From Thermococcus camini (GTDB lineage Archaea > Methanobacteriota_B > Thermococci > Thermococcales > Thermococcaceae), in contig NZ_LR881183.1 of NCBI RefSeq assembly GCF_904067545.1, forward strand, positions 748,277 through 812,276: 64,000 nt of DNA, given 5' to 3'. Within the stretch, counting starts at the first letter, position 1; each line of letters starts with the position of its first letter. The translations under genes and the position numbers were made by a program. Below are positions 9,870 through 17,056 of this stretch, piece by piece. The notes under the pieces were generated by a model. That model saw only the letters and a list, made by a program, of their open reading frames with translations. It was not told the origin of the DNA and did no database searches.

Positions 9870-10799
9870 TCAAAGCTTTTTGATCTTTGCCACGAAGAAG
9901 CCGCTCGTCCCGTGCCTGTCGGGGTAGAAGCGTCTGGCCTTTTTTATCTCCTCACTCAGCTCGATTCCAAAGGGCATCGTTAGAGCCGGCTCGCCGTAGC
10001 GAAGCGGGAGCAGTTCAACGTCGAAGTTATCAAGAACCCACTGGATCACGAACTCGTTTTCCTCGGGCTCAAGGGAGCAGGTGGAGTAGACGAGGGTTCC
10101 TCCCTTCTTGAGGACTTCGAGGGCCTTCTCGATGAGCTTCATCTGCAGACCCTGGCAGAACTTGACGTCTTCCATCGTCCTGTTGACCTTCCTCTCGGGG
10201 TTCTTGTGAATCGTTCCAGACCCTGTACACGGGGCGTCGAGGAGTATCCTGTCGAACTCGACGCCGAGTTCATCTATGTGGAGCGAAGATTTGTGGATGA
10301 GTACTGTGTTGGTAACGCCGAGCCTTGAGAGGTTCAGCCTCGTCTCCTTCAGCCTATCTTCGCCAACGTCGAAGGCGTAAACGATGCCCTCGTTCTCCAT
10401 CAGCTGGGCGAGGTAAGAAGTTTTACCTCCCGGTGCCGCCGCCATGTCAGCAACGACTTCTCCCGGCTTGGGCTCAAGTGCCACCGGCGGATACATCGAG
10501 CTGGCCTCCTGAATGTAAAGGAGACCGCTGAGGTACTCGGGCGTTGAGGTTATCGAGAAAGGTTCCTTTGTGAGGCAGAAGCCTTCCCTCGCCCAGGGAA
10601 TCTTCCTGAACTGAAAGCCCTTCTTGTTGAGGAGTTTTGTGAGCTTTGGAACCTCTATCCTGAGCGTGTTTACGCGGAAGCACCTCGGCAGAGGCTTTTC
10701 CATCGCCTCAGCTATGCTTAATGCCCTCTTGCCCCAGAGGGCATAATACCTCTCCGCGAAGGTCTTCGAGTAGCCGAGGGAAAACAACTTTTCCAGCAT
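9870..10799 (-). CDS. RNA (cytosine-C5)-methyltransferase, NOL1/NOP2/Sun (Trm4-like) family
   Basis: 309 residues. The methyltransferase domain has the S-adenosylmethionine loop MAAAPGGKTSYL (about 119-130) and the two catalytic-cysteine motifs LLDAPCTGSG (Cys191) and VYSTCSLEPEENE (Cys241), which together define m5C RNA methylases. The N-terminal 100 residues form the usual RNA-binding part (FRVNTLR). Archaeal members modify tRNA; an rRNA target is possible. A TATA box (CCTTTTAAACC, about 10818-10829) and GGGGAG precede the start. It ends 12 bases from the convergent gene at 8880-9857. Confidence 0.9.
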   Translation of the reverse strand: MLEKLFSLGYSKTFAERYYALWGKRALSIAEAMEKPLPRCFRVNTLRIEVPKLTKLLNKKGFQFRKIPWAREGFCLTKEPFSITSTPEYLSGLLYIQEASSMYPPVALEPKPGEVVADMAAAPGGKTSYLAQLMENEGIVYAFDVGEDRLKETRLNLSRLGVTNTVLIHKSSLHIDELGVEFDRILLDAPCTGSGTIHKNPERKVNRTMEDVKFCQGLQMKLIEKALEVLKKGGTLVYSTCSLEPEENEFVIQWVLDNFDVELLPLRYGEPALTMPFGIELSEEIKKARRFYPDRHGTSGFFVAKIKKL

Positions 10800-10863
10800 G
10801 GTGGGGAGTTGGGGGAGGGGTTTAAAAGGTTCTCCCTGAGTTATTTCTCATTTTTAGCAAGGA

Positions 10864-10932
10864 TTAAGCAGGAGGTGCCTAAATAGATTGCATATAATCT
10901 ACCGAAAGTCTTTTAAGCAGGAGGTGCCTAAA
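10864..10932 (+). repeat. Two perfect 20-bp direct repeats carrying a ribosome binding site
   Basis: TTAAGCAGGAGGTGCCTAAA occurs at 10864-10883 and again, identical, at 10913-10932, a 49-base period. The second copy supplies the GGAGGTG site for the GTG start at 10933. The first copy is followed by TAG and no open frame. CATATAAT between them (10890-10897) may be the TATA box. Confidence 0.75.
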
Positions 10933-11250
10933 GTGGCCCTTTCAGACCATCTATTGCCTGGAGAAGATATAAGGTTCCAAAGCAAAAGCCTTGTGGAGTA
11001 CGGCGGGAGCAGGTACCAAGTCATTGTAACTAACAAGAGGATAATACTCTACGCCCAGAGGGGCTTGGTATTCAAAAGTGATGACGTGGTGACGTTTAAA
11101 CTCGAAGATGTTCAGGGAATCAAATACAAGGAGCAGGGAATAATCGGGAAAAAGGGAATCGTTGAAATACATGCCAAGACCAAGGCCATCCTTACAGGGC
11201 CTGTTTCTGAAATGAAAAGTCTTTACCAGCAGCTCTTAGGATTCTTGTGA
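10933..11250 (+). CDS. Small PH-like (bacterial pleckstrin homology) domain protein, 105 aa
   Basis: The product begins at a GTG: VALSDHLLPGEDIRFQSKSLVEYGG, then VIVTNKRIILYAQ, beta-rich repeats and a final amphipathic helix (SEMKSLYQQLLGFL). This resembles single-domain bacterial PH-like folds, where LLPGE and TNKRIIL are typical. It has no signal peptide or membrane helix, so it is probably cytosolic. GGAGGTG seven bases before the GTG decides the start; an upstream in-frame ATG at 10888 lies within the probable TATA box. Its partner is unknown. It ends 21 bases from the convergent ATPase gene. Confidence 0.65.
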   Translation: MALSDHLLPGEDIRFQSKSLVEYGGSRYQVIVTNKRIILYAQRGLVFKSDDVVTFKLEDVQGIKYKEQGIIGKKGIVEIHAKTKAILTGPVSEMKSLYQQLLGFL

Positions 11251-11271
11251 ATTTTTGCACTATCTTAAATC

Positions 11272-12591
11272 TTACATCGACCTCCCGCTCTTCTTCAGGC
11301 CAAGGAGGTACAGCGAGACGGGAACGGTGTCTTTACCAAGCTCATCCTTCGAGACGTAAAGGGTCGGGAACGGGTAGCGTTTTCTTTTCACCTTTCCATA
11401 TTTCACCTCGATTCCGAAGAACTTTCCCCCCTCCCGCACAACGAGGTCGCATTCCTTGTTCCTGTCATAGTAAAATCCGGCGAAGGAGTGCTTTTCCCGG
11501 AGTATTGGCTCCTCGATGTGCCAGATGACATGAGAGGCAACGATGTTCTCGACAAGCCATTCAACGTTTCCCTCAACGAACTCAAGGGGGTTTTCACCGA
11601 GATAAACCGCCAGTGCCGTCGCTATGAGGGGGCTCTGGAAGACTATCTTTTTCTCCTTCCGGTGAGCGTGCCTCTTTTTGGCTATGTCCCAGGCCTCAAG
11701 GGTGTAAATAACCCTCGCGCTCTCAAGGGTCGAGAGATACTCCCTAACGGTCGGGTGGGAAACTCCGACTTCTCCAGCGAGGGTTACGTAATCAATACGG
11801 TTGCCCTTCAGCCTGAAAATCGCCTCCAGGAGTTCCCTCGCAATCTCTTCATTCTTTCCGGATTTGGCAATTTCGCCGAGAACCAGCCTTATTATCTCCT
11901 CGTATCGCTCTTCCCCGACGGTTCCAGAGCTTTTGTAGTCTAAAACTGCCTCCGGAAAACCCCCGGTAAGAATGTACGCGTAGAACAGCCCCTCAAGCTC
12001 CTCGTACCAGGGGAAAACGTTATCAACGGCTGGTTCGTTGTAGGGAAAAGACACGTCCGGCAGTTCGGGGTTCATAAACCTCGCGAATTCCCTGAAATTG
12101 AGAGGGTTGAAGTAGTACTCGTTCCCCTCAATGCCCCTTCCGGGCAAAAGTTCCGCCTCCCTCTTCAGCTCGACCGGATTTGAACCGGTGGCAACAGTGG
12201 TTACGCCATCTTCACCGAGTTCCTTGAGGAGGAGACGCCAGCCGTCGAGGTACGTTATCTCGTCGAGGAAGACGTAAAGCTCCCCCTGTCTTACCCTCAG
12301 CTCGTCTATGAAGCCCTTGACTTCTCTCCTCCTGAACCTGTCGCAGGGTATATAAACGACCCTCCTGGGAGCTACACCCTCTGAAATCAGCCTTTTTATC
12401 ATGGTCTTAATGTAAAAGCTCTTGCCGGCACGGCGAATTCCTCTGAGGAGCGTTACGGAACCTTCCTTTATCACGATTTCCTTTCTGGGGATTACCTCTT
12501 TCACACGTGAGAGGTTTGGGTCTTCCCTCTCCCAGTCTGCGCCCTTCCACCAGGAGTTGTGCCTGACGAGTTTGACTATCTTAACCGCCAT
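11272..12591 (-). CDS. AAA_14/DUF4143-type ATP-binding protein (first of three in the island)
   Basis: 439 residues. It has a Walker A GIRRAGKS (51-58), a Walker B YVFLDEITYLDGW (about 107-119) and sensor-like VATGSNP. A winged-helix-like segment (YVTLAGEVGVSHPTVREYLSTL, about residues 268-289) follows. A C-terminal DUF4143 part contains CDLVVREGGKFFGIEVKYGK, the pattern of a PD-(D/E)xK nuclease-like core. These archaeal ATPases are abundant, variable and of unknown role; links to DNA or mobile elements are often suspected. Its start codon abuts a five-fold 32-bp-period palindrome array with a TATA box in the first spacer, so it is probably tightly regulated, perhaps by its own HTH. Confidence 0.85.
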   Translation of the reverse strand: MAVKIVKLVRHNSWWKGADWEREDPNLSRVKEVIPRKEIVIKEGSVTLLRGIRRAGKSFYIKTMIKRLISEGVAPRRVVYIPCDRFRRREVKGFIDELRVRQGELYVFLDEITYLDGWRLLLKELGEDGVTTVATGSNPVELKREAELLPGRGIEGNEYYFNPLNFREFARFMNPELPDVSFPYNEPAVDNVFPWYEELEGLFYAYILTGGFPEAVLDYKSSGTVGEERYEEIIRLVLGEIAKSGKNEEIARELLEAIFRLKGNRIDYVTLAGEVGVSHPTVREYLSTLESARVIYTLEAWDIAKKRHAHRKEKKIVFQSPLIATALAVYLGENPLEFVEGNVEWLVENIVASHVIWHIEEPILREKHSFAGFYYDRNKECDLVVREGGKFFGIEVKYGKVKRKRYPFPTLYVSKDELGKDTVPVSLYLLGLKKSGRSM

Positions 12592-12592
12592 G

Positions 12593-12740
12593 TGTGAAAG
12601 TACGCTTTCATAACTTATAAGATTTGTGAAAGCAGACTTTCACAAAACGCCCCTTTTATGAAAGTCCACTTTCATATATTGCACCGTTTATGAAAGCCTG
12701 CTTTCACAAAATGCCCTTTTTGTGGGTATGCGCTCTCATA
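12593..12740. promoter_or_regulatory. Array of five 20-bp palindromes at an exact 32-bp period
   Basis: Sites at 12593-12612, 12625-12644, 12657-12676, 12689-12708 and 12721-12740 follow TRTGAAAG-N4-CTTTCAYA. Sites 2 and 3 are perfect palindromes, 1 and 4 differ only at the Y/R position, and 5 is degenerate. Spacers are always 12 bases. Spacer 1 (12613-12624) holds a TATA box for the ATPase gene starting at 12591, so sites 1 and 2 flank its core promoter. A 32-base step is about three helical turns, placing all sites on one face of DNA. Confidence 0.9.
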
Positions 12741-12896
12741 AAACGGCACTTCCTGAGGGCTCAGATATGGTGAAGGGCTGTGGAAAAGGCAGGAAAACTC
12801 AGAGGTGCCTTAAGGCTTCCTCCGCTTTTTTGAACTTCCATTCTTATCGCAAGGGAAATATCCTGTCTGTGAGTTCCTCTATCTTTCCTTCGTATG

Positions 12897-12934
<38 letters not shown>

Positions 12935-12992
12935 AAGAGAAAAGTCATTCGCATTCAGCTCACGAGAACATATAAAACGGTTGCCTGCCGGC

Positions 12993-14279
12993 TCAGGTGA
13001 AACCCATCAAAAACCTCCACAGGGGGATCATCTCTATGGTGGTGTCCTTTCCGTTTACCCTGCCCGCCACGTCCCATGTAATCAGCAGGGCGTTTTTAAA
13101 GCCGAATTCTCTCGAAGCTTTTCTGAGAGCGTTCACCTCACGCTTAAACGTTTCTTCTCCGCTGATATCGTAGCTCACCTGGATCAGCGTCTCCTCTTCA
13201 GGCAGGACGAAATCAACCTCCCAGTTCTTCCCGAGGGCATAATTAACTTCCTTTCTCCTCCGGAGGAGCTCGATGAAAACGGCGTTTTCCATAAGCCTCC
13301 CCATGTTCTCGCTGAACTTCACGCTCAGAAACGTCAAAAAGGACGTATCAACGAAGTATATCTTTCTGGGGTGCTGCATCCTGAGCCTCACCTTGGGGGA
13401 ATACACCTCAAGGGGAAATGCAAAGTAGCACTCCTCAAGGTACCTCAGGTAGCTGGCGAGCGTTGATTTGGATATTGAGTAGCCCATGCTCCTCATTGTT
13501 TTGGCGGTTTTACTCAGGCTCACGTACTCGGAGTTAAGGAGAAGTCGGATGAAGGTTCTGAGCTCTTCCGGATTTCTGATTGAGTACCTCTCCACGACAT
13601 CGAGGGCTATTACCGTGTTGAAGTAGTCCCGGACGATTAACCCCTTGACCCTCACGTCGCTGGTTAGAACGACCTCCGGAAAGCCTCCATAGAGGAGGTA
13701 CTCCCTCAGCAGGTTGAGCAAGACGGGTTTTTTTGGGCTGAAGTCCAACCTCTCAGGTATTTCAAAACCCTTGAACCTCAGGAACTCCCGGAAGCTCAGG
13801 GGAAAAACCTCGAACGTCAGAGCCCTGCCCCTGAGTGAGGTGGGGATTTCTCTGCTGGAGAGCTTTGAGGATGAGCCGCTTAAGAAAAGCCTCACGTCTC
13901 TCCTCGAATCATGGACTCTCCTCACCCACGAGTCCCAGCCCGGAATGTTCTGTATCTCGTCCAGAAAGAGGTACAGCCTGTCCTTTTTCCCGTAGAGCTC
14001 CTCTATCGTTGGTATGAGCTCCGTTAGAGTTTCGGTTCTCTTTTCGAGCCTTTCATCTTCAAAGTTGATGTAGAATATTTCCTCCCTCGGAGCTTTTTTT
14101 GACAGCTCGTTGATGAGCTGGAACATCAGGTACGTTTTGCCTGACCTCCGACAGCCGGCAAAGGTTACAACCTTTTTCGGTTTATCCGGTATCAGGGAGA
14201 CATCAAAGTCCCTCTCGACGAGCTCAGGCGTCCAGGTTTCCTGCCACTCCACCAAAACCTTGGCCAAATCCTCCCTCAT
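12993..14279 (-). CDS. AAA_14/DUF4143-type ATP-binding protein (second of three in the island)
   Basis: 428 residues with Walker A GCRRSGKT (42-49), Walker B LYLFLDEIQNIPGW, sensor LFLSGSSSKLSS, and the family hallmark FPLSFREFLRFKGFE. A helix-turn-helix-like stretch (SLSKTAKTMRSMGYSISKST) precedes the DUF4143 C-terminal domain. There, WEVDFVLPEEETLIQVSYD retains the nuclease-like D...Q/E-x-K shape only in part (no clear ExK). Role unknown. It is on the same strand as the ATPases on each side but separated by over 130 bases and with its own promoter palindrome, so the three are paralogous neighbours and not one operon. Confidence 0.85.
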   Translation of the reverse strand: MREDLAKVLVEWQETWTPELVERDFDVSLIPDKPKKVVTFAGCRRSGKTYLMFQLINELSKKAPREEIFYINFEDERLEKRTETLTELIPTIEELYGKKDRLYLFLDEIQNIPGWDSWVRRVHDSRRDVRLFLSGSSSKLSSREIPTSLRGRALTFEVFPLSFREFLRFKGFEIPERLDFSPKKPVLLNLLREYLLYGGFPEVVLTSDVRVKGLIVRDYFNTVIALDVVERYSIRNPEELRTFIRLLLNSEYVSLSKTAKTMRSMGYSISKSTLASYLRYLEECYFAFPLEVYSPKVRLRMQHPRKIYFVDTSFLTFLSVKFSENMGRLMENAVFIELLRRRKEVNYALGKNWEVDFVLPEEETLIQVSYDISGEETFKREVNALRKASREFGFKNALLITWDVAGRVNGKDTTIEMIPLWRFLMGFT

Positions 14280-14300
14280 GGGTACCAGTACTCCCTCATC

Positions 14301-14342
14301 ATTTATAAACCTTGTCCAATATACTGGACAGCCATTTATAAA
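14301..14342 (-). promoter_or_regulatory. Twin TATA boxes flanking an 18-bp palindrome
   Basis: ATTTATAAA occurs at 14301-14309 and 14334-14342, 33 bases apart. Between them lies TGTCCA-N6-TGGACA (14313-14330). The nearer TATA box is about 25 bases from the ATPase start at 14279. The palindrome would sit over the BRE/TATA side and could act as an operator. Confidence 0.6.
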
Positions 14343-14479
14343 TTGCTGTTCTGCACGGTTACCCCTCCCGAAATCAGAATGCTGTAGGAAAAGTATTATA
14401 CTCTGCCAGCATCATTTTTAGCAGCCAATGTTCGTGGACAGAGAGAAGGAGCCTGAGTTCTTCCCAGTTAATCAACTCC

Positions 14480-15847
14480 TCAAATAAGCCTTTCGAAATC
14501 CCTCAAATCCCAGACCAAGTATTCGTCCCTTAGCTCTTCCTTTCCTTCAACCTCCTTCGCCACGAGACCGTAGCCCTTCTCCCAGTCCTCGAGACCGACA
14601 AGCCCGGCCTTCCGCTCCAGATCCTTCAAGATTTCCCGTGCTTCCCTCTCTTTCAGCTCTTTCCACTTCACTTCCACGAAGAGAACTTTTTTCTCCCTCT
14701 CATTCAGCACCACAATGTCAATCTCCTCCCCTTTATGCCACCACCTTCCAATTCTTGTGAACCTGAAGGGAATCTTTCCAGTCCTGTTGAGCTCAACTAA
14801 GAACTGCCTCGCTATTTCCTCGAAAACGAAGCCAAGGTATTCATTAAACTTGGGCTTGATGTCTCCAACAACATCAAAGCCCATCTCGATCTCGCTTTTC
14901 CTCGGATAGACGAAGCGGAACCAGAAGTTGAAGAGCCTGTCGGTTATTTTGTAGATGCCCCTTCCCCGTCCCACGACGGGCTTTTCCTCGCTTATGTATC
15001 CCATCTCCTTAAGGACGTTGAGGTACTTGCCGAGCGAGTTAAGGTCAACCTTAGCTCTGTCGGCTATCTGGCCGAAGCGGTTGTAGCCGAGTGCTATCGC
15101 CCTCAGTATGGAGAAGTACCTCGAAACATCCCTCAGCTCCTGTTTAAGAAGGTATTTTGGCTCATCATAGTATTTCGCACCCTTCGACAGCAGAAGAACT
15201 CTTAGATTGTCCCAGAAGTCAAGCTCTGGATTGTAATCAGCCCAGTACTGTGGGACTCCTCCAAAGACGGAACAGACGTGGACGGCCTCCTCGGTGCTTA
15301 GGGGGTGGAACTTCCTTACGTTGAAAAAGTCCATTTCCTCAACTTTCCACGCTCCGGTTCTTCTTCCGTATATCGGTGACTTTGCTGAAAGAACGCCCTC
15401 CATGAACGAAACCAGCGAACCGCAGAGGACCAGCATTATCTTTGTATTAGAGAGATGCATATCCCAGTACTTTTGAAGGACGCTGAGAAAGTCCCTTTGG
15501 GCTTTCGCTATATATTGAACCTCATCTATCACCACGACGAGCCTTTCAGAGCTTTTTCCCGCGAGATAAGTGAAGAAAGCCCTCCAGTTCTGAAGTGGAT
15601 TCTCCCTGAGGAACGGGTCTTTGAAATACTCGGCGAGCCTTTCGGAGAAGTCGTCGAGGATGGTCTCGCTCTCCTCGGCGAGCAGATAGACCCCATCAAC
15701 TTCGGAAAGGAACTTCTGAAGGAGGTACGTCTTACCTATCCTCATCCGTCCGTAGAGGATTATCAGCTCGGGCCTTTCAGAGTGGTATCTTTCACGCAGG
15801 AACTCAAGCTCTGACTCCCGGTCAATAAACTTACTCACGAGTATCAT
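14480..15847 (-). CDS. Archaeal ATPase with DUF234 C-terminal domain (third of three in the island)
   Basis: 455 residues. The N-terminal P-loop reads LYGRMRIGKTYL (Walker A 33-40), followed by VVVIDEVQYIAKAQRD (Walker B) and VLCGSLVSFMEG (sensor). A winged-helix segment (YNRFGQIADRAKVDLNSLGKYL) follows. The C-terminal DUF234 part has GEEIDIVVLNEREKKVLFVEVKWK, a PD-(D/E)xK nuclease-like D...ExK core that appears intact. Molecular role unknown. The start ATG lies at the centre of a 37-bp concentric palindrome. Of the three island ATPases this one is the most distant in sequence. Confidence 0.85.
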   Translation of the reverse strand: MILVSKFIDRESELEFLRERYHSERPELIILYGRMRIGKTYLLQKFLSEVDGVYLLAEESETILDDFSERLAEYFKDPFLRENPLQNWRAFFTYLAGKSSERLVVVIDEVQYIAKAQRDFLSVLQKYWDMHLSNTKIMLVLCGSLVSFMEGVLSAKSPIYGRRTGAWKVEEMDFFNVRKFHPLSTEEAVHVCSVFGGVPQYWADYNPELDFWDNLRVLLLSKGAKYYDEPKYLLKQELRDVSRYFSILRAIALGYNRFGQIADRAKVDLNSLGKYLNVLKEMGYISEEKPVVGRGRGIYKITDRLFNFWFRFVYPRKSEIEMGFDVVGDIKPKFNEYLGFVFEEIARQFLVELNRTGKIPFRFTRIGRWWHKGEEIDIVVLNEREKKVLFVEVKWKELKEREAREILKDLERKAGLVGLEDWEKGYGLVAKEVEGKEELRDEYLVWDLRDFERLI

Positions 15848-15863
15848 ACTTTAGAGTAAGTTT
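15827..15863. promoter_or_regulatory. 37-bp concentric palindrome centred on a start codon
   Basis: AAACTTACTC at 15827-15836 is matched by GAGTAAGTTT at 15854-15863, and inside lies AGTATCATACT (15840-15850), a second palindrome with the same centre (15845). The ATG of the DUF234 ATPase occupies 15847-15845. With a weak TATA box near 15868-15878, the transcript would start close to the ATG, so a protein bound here could block transcription start. Confidence 0.7.
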
Positions 15864-15918
15864 CTCTGTTCATAAGCATTTCTTTATTGAACTTCAGAAC
15901 CGGAAAAATAGAAGAGAA

Positions 15919-16866
15919 TCAGACCTTTATCCCGCCCATGACAAGGGCCATCACTGCCTTCTGGGCGTGGAGCCTGTTCTCCGCTTCATCAAAGACGACG
16001 CTGTTCGGGGAGTCAACGACGTCGTCGGTGACCTCCTCTCCCCTGTGGGCAGGGAGGCAGTGCATGAAGATGTAGTCCGGCTTGGCGTGCTTGACGAGAT
16101 CCCTGTTGACTTGGAACGGCTGGAATATCTTCCTCCTCTCCTCGGCCTCGGCCTCCTGGCCCATTGACGCCCAGACGTCGGTGTAGATGACGTCCGCATC
16201 TTTAACCGCCTGAACCGGGTCGTGGAGGAGCTCGAAGCTGCCATCGCTCTCGGCCGCGTTCTGCTCTGCCCACTTGATTACGCGCTTGTCCGGCTCGTAG
16301 CCCTCAGGAGTTGCAACGACGACGTTGGCACCGAGCTTAGTCCCGGCTATCATGAGTGAGTGTGCCACGTTGTTGCCGTCGCCGACGTAGACTATCTTGA
16401 GGCCGGCTATGCGACCCTTCTTCTCGAGAATGGTCTGGTAGTCAGCTAAAGCCTGGCACGGGTGGGAGAAGTCAGACAGACCGTTGATGACCGGGACGCT
16501 GGCGTACTTTGCTAAGTCCTCGACGTCCCTGTGGGCGTAAACCCTTGCCATCATTCCGTCCACGTACCTGCTGAGGACGCGGGCGGTGTCGGCGATGGTC
16601 TCGCCCCTCCTCAGCTGTAGGTCGTTCGCGTTGAGGTAGAGGCCGTAGCCGCCGAGCTGGTAGATGCCGACCTCGAAGGAGATCCTCGTTCTGGTTGAGG
16701 GCTTCTGGAAGATCATGGCCAGGGTCTTGCCCTCAAGAACGCGGTGCGGCTTGCCTATTTTGTTCCAGATCTTCATCATCTCGGCCGTCTTGAGAATAGT
16801 CTCAATCTCCTCCCTCGTAAAGTCCTGAAGGCAGAGAACATCCCTTCCAGCGAGGCTAACCACCAT
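15919..16866 (-). CDS. argF: Ornithine carbamoyltransferase
   Basis: 315 residues starting MVVSLAGRDVLCLQDF, the same length and opening as the P. furiosus enzyme. The carbamoyl-phosphate loop STRTR is at 57-61; HPCQALAD and the ornithine/catalytic HCLP motif are present. The enzyme makes citrulline from ornithine and carbamoyl phosphate, in arginine synthesis or, reversed, in the agmatine/arginine deiminase direction. I use the ATG at 16866, preceded by GGTGATGCAC, not the GTG at 16875. A TATA box (TATTAAAACC) lies at about 16896-16905. No other arg gene is adjacent. Confidence 0.96.
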   Translation of the reverse strand: MVVSLAGRDVLCLQDFTREEIETILKTAEMMKIWNKIGKPHRVLEGKTLAMIFQKPSTRTRISFEVGIYQLGGYGLYLNANDLQLRRGETIADTARVLSRYVDGMMARVYAHRDVEDLAKYASVPVINGLSDFSHPCQALADYQTILEKKGRIAGLKIVYVGDGNNVAHSLMIAGTKLGANVVVATPEGYEPDKRVIKWAEQNAAESDGSFELLHDPVQAVKDADVIYTDVWASMGQEAEAEERRKIFQPFQVNRDLVKHAKPDYIFMHCLPAHRGEEVTDDVVDSPNSVVFDEAENRLHAQKAVMALVMGGIKV

Positions 16867-17056
16867 GTGCATCACCGTCTAAAGCTGGGGCCCGGTTTTA
16901 ATAACCCTTTCGTCGGAGAAAGGCTGCTAGTGCTGAAATCTTTTGAGCATTAATGCACGCGGCCTTTCTAAATGTAATGTCTGAAGGGATGAACCTCCCC
17001 ACTTGCGGTACTTCCAATATTGATGTGTCATACTTTTATGGCAATGGGTGGAAAAC

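Follow-up and report, generated by a model that had tools for sequence, protein, structure and literature searches.

In archaea, regulators of the Lrp type occupy sites repeated at regular intervals of two or three helical turns, and the operators of Ss-LrpB, Ptr2 and FL11/LrpA combine palindromes in helical register with cooperative dimers and autoregulation (PMC2995911). Sites of the TrmB family, according to PMC9426492 and PMC4158304, are palindromes that lie before the BRE/TATA element or at the start site. Here, we analysed a window, the whole 64,000-nucleotide stretch of Thermococcus camini DNA, in which four copies and a decayed fifth of the palindrome TRTGAAAG-N4-CTTTCAYA, with a step of exactly 32 bp, overlie the promoter of ATP1, as we call the gene of a DUF4143 ATPase. 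The original prediction knew of no described archaeal operator with such a geometry; Lrp-type sites, with regular palindromes two or three turns apart, offer a precedent that the 32-bp step fits (PMC2995911). The ladder site differs from theirs in word and width, being 20 bp long (TGAAA-N6-TTTCA), and the proteins that we link to it, ATP1 and a TrmB-like protein, are not Lrp proteins. The word of the Lrp protein FL11 is TGAAANNNTTTCA; as a family match it was rejected because its spacing is wrong. Regularly spaced repeats in an archaeon also recall a CRISPR array, for which we took as the criterion that the repeats be roughly 23-47 bp long and the spacers unrelated to one another. This identity was ruled out: the repeats are 20-bp palindromes, the 12-bp spacers are similar to one another, and the array sits on a TATA box.

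The ATPase itself has a described counterpart in the PDC-S01 phage-defence candidates, which combine AAA_14 and DUF4143. PADLOC models of this class match ATP1 and the neighbouring ATPase ATP2 (E=1e-35 and 8e-111), where PDC-S01 is a candidate class only and both proteins are known here by model match. ATPases with a DUF4143 domain are common but have received almost no study, and a single paper in the open-licence literature that we searched names the domain, yet these proteins match models of phage-defence candidates.

The ladder at the ATP1 promoter

ATP1 (11272..12591, minus strand) encodes a laterally mobile protein of 439 aa, as judged from its gene tree, with an AAA_14 domain (PF13173, E=4e-21, 75.7 bits, cut-off 27), a predicted winged helix-turn-helix (wHTH) and a DUF4143 domain (PF13635, E=8e-19, 68.3 bits, cut-off 28.1). 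A structure prediction built from five sequences had a pLDDT of 42 and was set aside. The start codon occupies 12589-12591 and is separated by 1 bp from site 1 (TGTGAAAGTACGCTTTCATA, 12593..12612), which lies between the ATP1 TATA box and the ATG. The TATA box, CTTATAAG, is contained in the 12-bp spacer that follows (12613..12624, minus-strand AATCTTATAAGT), at the right position for a near-leaderless transcript, and site 2 (12625..12644) abuts it on the upstream side. Sites 3 (12657..12676), 4 (12689..12708) and 5 (12721..12740) continue the series.

Reading of the sequence and a scripted check agreed that sites 1 to 4 match TRTGAAAGNNNNCTTTCAYA with 0 mismatches. The central two, sites 2 and 3, are perfect palindromes (8/8 arm pairs), the outer two, at 12593 and 12689, pair at 7/8 positions, and site 5 has decayed to 5 mismatches and 4/8 arm pairs; its equivalent in genome G036 is likewise decayed. 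Thus the original prediction was right about the positions and exact period of the five palindromes, the perfection of the central copies, the decay of the most distal one, and the placement of TATA box and first site relative to the gene. Four matches with at most 3 mismatches occur in the window against 0.68 expected from shuffles, and 0 of 100 shuffles reached four. The exact core, TGAAAGNNNNCTTTCA, is found in this ladder and nowhere else in the 2.02-Mb genome; control matches numbered 0.

We propose that the ladder is an operator for repression and autoregulation, with ATP1 as its probable reader and the TrmB-like protein as a second one, a proposal to which we give about an even chance of being correct. 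Dimers of a winged-helix protein would bind the 20-bp palindromes, with a dimer on site 2 lying over the TATA box at its upstream edge and one on site 1 filling the stretch between TATA and start codon. Occupancy of both would block TBP/TFB or RNA polymerase, and the copies farther upstream could contribute cooperative binding or dosage sensitivity. If the reader is ATP1's own winged helix, the outcome would be negative autoregulation. We infer repression because sites 1 and 2 overlie the TATA-ATG region and because the TrmB-like regulator's own palindrome lies at the equivalent place in its promoter.

Distribution, transfer and persistence without ATP1

The ladder lies in an interval flanked on one side by NSUN (9870..10799, minus strand), a NOL1/NOP2/sun RNA methylase gene (TIGR00446, E=2e-91), and on the other by OTC (15919..16875, minus strand), which encodes ornithine carbamoyltransferase (TIGR00658, E=1e-143) and is the other fixed flank. 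Between NSUN and ATP1 is the gene of a small PH-domain protein (10888..11250, plus strand; PF14470, E=3e-5), found in a few genomes. The NSUN-OTC interval (window 9870-16875) is a hotspot in which ATPase genes of the PDC-S01 and PDC-S27 types are gained and lost between species.

At least two sites at a 32-bp step are present in 38 of 94 Thermococcaceae genomes. Of these arrays we read 37; ATP1 accompanies 15 of them and is missing from the other 22. The step recurs in 36 Thermococcaceae arrays besides this one, a count biased by the use of the 32-bp step to find them. Orthologues without the array had been named in the original prediction as the finding that would speak against it; all 15 full-length ATP1 genes (74-100% identity, copies moved to other genera included) have the ladder. 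Sites 1 and 2 bracket the TATA box at every one of these loci, TTATAA stands at the corresponding spacer position in 15/15, and site 1 is present in 15/15 promoters with a mean of 0.13 mismatches.

Outside the Thermococcaceae, a two-site pattern scan of genome contigs and viral contigs found no array with at least three sites at the 32-bp step, and the other matches almost all look like chance single sites; two-site matches turned up in L208 and L228, and the 94-genome scan gave one ladder-like match in G092. Searched for at 32-bp steps, as had been proposed, ladders were found within the family; viral contigs hold no ladder of at least three sites. The original prediction also offered, as its other reading, an iteron-like maintenance element of an integrated replicon. 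Such an element, iteron-like or centromere-like, would suit the fixed step of the tandem sites and the mobility of ATP1, but the ladder is always a promoter element, mostly of 2-4 sites, placed between NSUN and OTC or moving with ATP1. Its identified neighbours are NSUN, OTC and ATPases, with no replication or partition gene in evidence next to the ladder, and a plasmid search with ATP1 returned distant matches only, none above 30% identity. We regard a replicon element as extremely improbable.

The ATP1 gene tree mixes genera. In G009, a Pyrococcus-like genome, a fragment of NSUN comes after array and ATP1. This fragment shares 87-88% identity with NSUN of Thermococcus G016/G039 and 71% with G009's own NSUN; the closer match to Thermococcus makes this a clear case of lateral transfer of an array-ATP1 unit. 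Mapped on the NSUN tree, the distribution of ATP1 takes at least 13 changes to explain and that of the array 22. The transferred unit terminates in the internal NSUN fragment (L091:11340-11700), after which comes the sequence GTTTCCGAAGAACTAAATAG, which we take to be like a Thermococcales CRISPR repeat.

In the 22 genomes without ATP1 the ladder is kept mostly upstream of the NSUN promoter. Among ATP1-less Thermococcus genomes it occupies a fixed place between NSUN and OTC, around which varied ATPase genes have been gained and lost, and it often consists of three sites that correspond to window sites 4-3-2 and stop immediately before the conserved NSUN promoter GAACCTTTTAAACC. The NSUN-proximal site, equivalent to window site 2, lies about 42 nt before the NSUN ATG. 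This arrangement raises the possibility that the ladder is an NSUN regulatory element into which ATP1 was inserted later. We find this quite improbable: many genomes have NSUN and no ladder, the ladder travels with ATP1 to other loci, and in the G048/G055/G067 clade, where NSUN and the ladder are kept apart by an inserted lipoprotein-like gene in the members read, the ladder is still conserved. That clade disfavours NSUN as sole target. The inserted gene, of about 580 aa, sits at the NSUN start in G048 and G067 (L077:6000-6100, L085 about 9880-10135), and the insertion leaves the array with a truncated NSUN promoter and start.

Ladders without ATP1 might instead be relics that decay after loss of the ATPase and have no present function. 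Consistent with this, they carry more mismatches per site than arrays with ATP1 (1.07 vs 0.51, p=0.02), a frameshifted ATP1 accompanies a decayed array in G054, single or broken remnants are found in G069, G060 and G037, and G092 holds a relic promoter of a related ATPase. Against it stand the perfect three-site ladders of ATP1-less G036 and G042, and the fixed columns of the palindrome, which vary far less than N4 and spacers in two clades whose lack of ATP1 throughout is a parsimony assumption: 0/42 against 7/36 variable columns in G033/G044/G061 (p=0.003) and 6/56 against 16/52 in G048/G055/G067 (p=0.009). We consider that these ladders are functionless relics fairly unlikely. They are probably subject both to selection by a second reader and to slow decay; reading by ATP1 alone does not explain conservation where ATP1 is missing, while a TrmB-like second reader would.

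Paired palindromes across the AAA_14/DUF4143 family

Two observations go beyond the original prediction, and the first concerns the relatives of ATP1. We read the promoters of 53 other AAA_14/DUF4143 ATPases. A similar pair of palindromes exceeded a 99% shuffle null in 34 of them, at exactly 34 bp in 30, and the pairs bracket the TATA box as a rule; the remaining 19 showed no pair above the null. Among control genes, pairs were found in 0/151 members of four gene families, 2/54 OTC genes and 9/81 NSUN genes, where ladders occur. No description of family-wide paired palindromes was found in the open-licence literature.

The 34-bp spacing bears on the argument that 32 bp, as three helical turns, places all sites on one side of the DNA. 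That argument is attractive for this ladder and is weakened by the relatives, because 34 bp is 3.24 turns at 10.5 bp per turn; the constant feature may thus be the bracketing of the TATA box, not helical phase.

Each subfamily has its own word: TTGGTAAT-N3-ATTACCAA (type A), TTGATA-N6-TATCAA (type B), TGAGAACT-N3-ACTTCTCA (type C) and TTTGCAGT-N3-ACTGCAAA. Types A, B and C, searched in six or seven genomes each, are essentially private to ATPase promoters. The extra one-mismatch matches to these three words fall mostly within coding regions; one marks a relic type-A promoter, which, at L419:1440-1550 in G092, retains both palindromes with no ATPase gene after them. In the alignment the predicted recognition helix is alike within an operator type and different between types, its region reading GSHKTVFSY in A, SHxTVRDY in B, YSYKVVQDY in C, SPHTARDY in D and SHPTVREY in E, the type of ATP1; the aligned region of the TrmB-like protein is SERSVREH, and four type-B rows are other long ORFs and uninformative. 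Helix and word both track phylogeny, so their agreement, although consistent, does not independently prove contact.

Words that are subfamily-specific and private to ATPases, combined with a type-dependent helix, favour binding by the ATPases themselves, and no regulator partner was found for the private palindromes of the relatives. Because the relatives have TATA-bracketing pairs with subfamily-specific words, essentially private where searched, ATP1 is by analogy the most likely reader of its own ladder. The suggestion of an autoregulated switch, plausibly bound by the ATPase's winged helix, thereby gains from the comparison, in which one spacing is fixed while the words change. An operator that is family-wide with a subfamily-specific word allows a direct and cheap test of ATPase binding and silencing, and at least five helix-word pairs are available for reading a winged-helix recognition code.

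ATP2 (12993-14279), next to ATP1 in the window, has the palindrome TGTCCAATATACTGGACA at 14313-14330, immediately upstream of its TATA box, and a second inverted repeat adjoins it. This is a different operator word, belonging to another family member.

A TrmB-family regulator with a near-identical palindrome

The second observation is that a core regulator has, in its own promoter, a 20-bp palindrome much like that of the ladder. Only one other place in the genome matches with fewer than 3 mismatches; it follows closely on the TATA box of a small gene for a winged-helix protein (G000:C1:286988-287329, L252), in the same position relative to TATA as ATP1 site 1. The product has one domain, a TrmB winged helix (PF01978, 36.5 bits, cut-off 25.6), and its closest solved relative is AF2008 (PDB 1sfx, E=6e-21). 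It is present in 87 of 94 Thermococcaceae genomes, and at E<=1e-12 the genomes from other families of the class yielded no match. Like OxsR, MreA and AF2008 it is a TrmB-family protein with a single wHTH; unlike OxsR it has no cysteine, and therefore cannot be a thiol switch of that kind. It is absent from the Thermococcales TrmB members in the tables of PMC4158304 that we consulted.

The palindrome is conserved at the regulator's own promoter, exact in 34 of 70 orthologues and with at most 1 mismatch in 49, against 0 of 1400 shuffles. A pattern designed after both sets of sites had been seen, TATGAARN6YTTCATA, has 27 exact matches in 16 whole genomes, 16 of them at regulator promoters (one per genome) and 11 in ladders; it occurs nowhere else in these genomes, and controls gave 0. 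The exact word thus points to no further targets in the 16 genomes, and at 2 mismatches this genome holds 20 matches against 11 in the control, near the control level. The link to the ladder gives this core regulator, whose evident targets are few, a predicted target other than its own gene.

The regulator is likely a second reader of the ladder. Could it be the only one, with host control over ATP1 or, in genomes lacking ATP1, over NSUN? The conserved and equally placed palindrome, the confinement of the common word to two kinds of place in 16 genomes, and the conservation of ladders without ATP1 agree with this. The half-sites are close and not identical, TRTGAAAG in the ladder vs TATGAA(G/A) at the regulator promoter: preferences at positions 7-8 differ, with A at position 7 in 226/232 ladder half-sites vs 48/140 at regulator promoters, which argues against a single reader common to both. 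Moreover, Pyrococcus-like genomes have an altered word at the regulator's own promoter and an unaltered one in the ladder, and the related ATPases own private palindromes with no regulator partner. Exclusive reading by the regulator is accordingly somewhat unlikely in our view.

Returning to joint reading by ATP1 and the regulator, we tentatively envision a mobile family of self-regulating ATPases in which each subfamily has its own helix and word at a fixed spacing around the TATA box, as an interchangeable operator-reader module. One subfamily would have taken up a word close to that of a core regulator of the host and multiplied it to form a ladder, at which host and mobile gene may compete. 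In the 5' region of the regulator gene (L252:1125-1520; G000:C1:286988-287380), the conserved palindrome is followed by a conserved CATAGGTGGGA.
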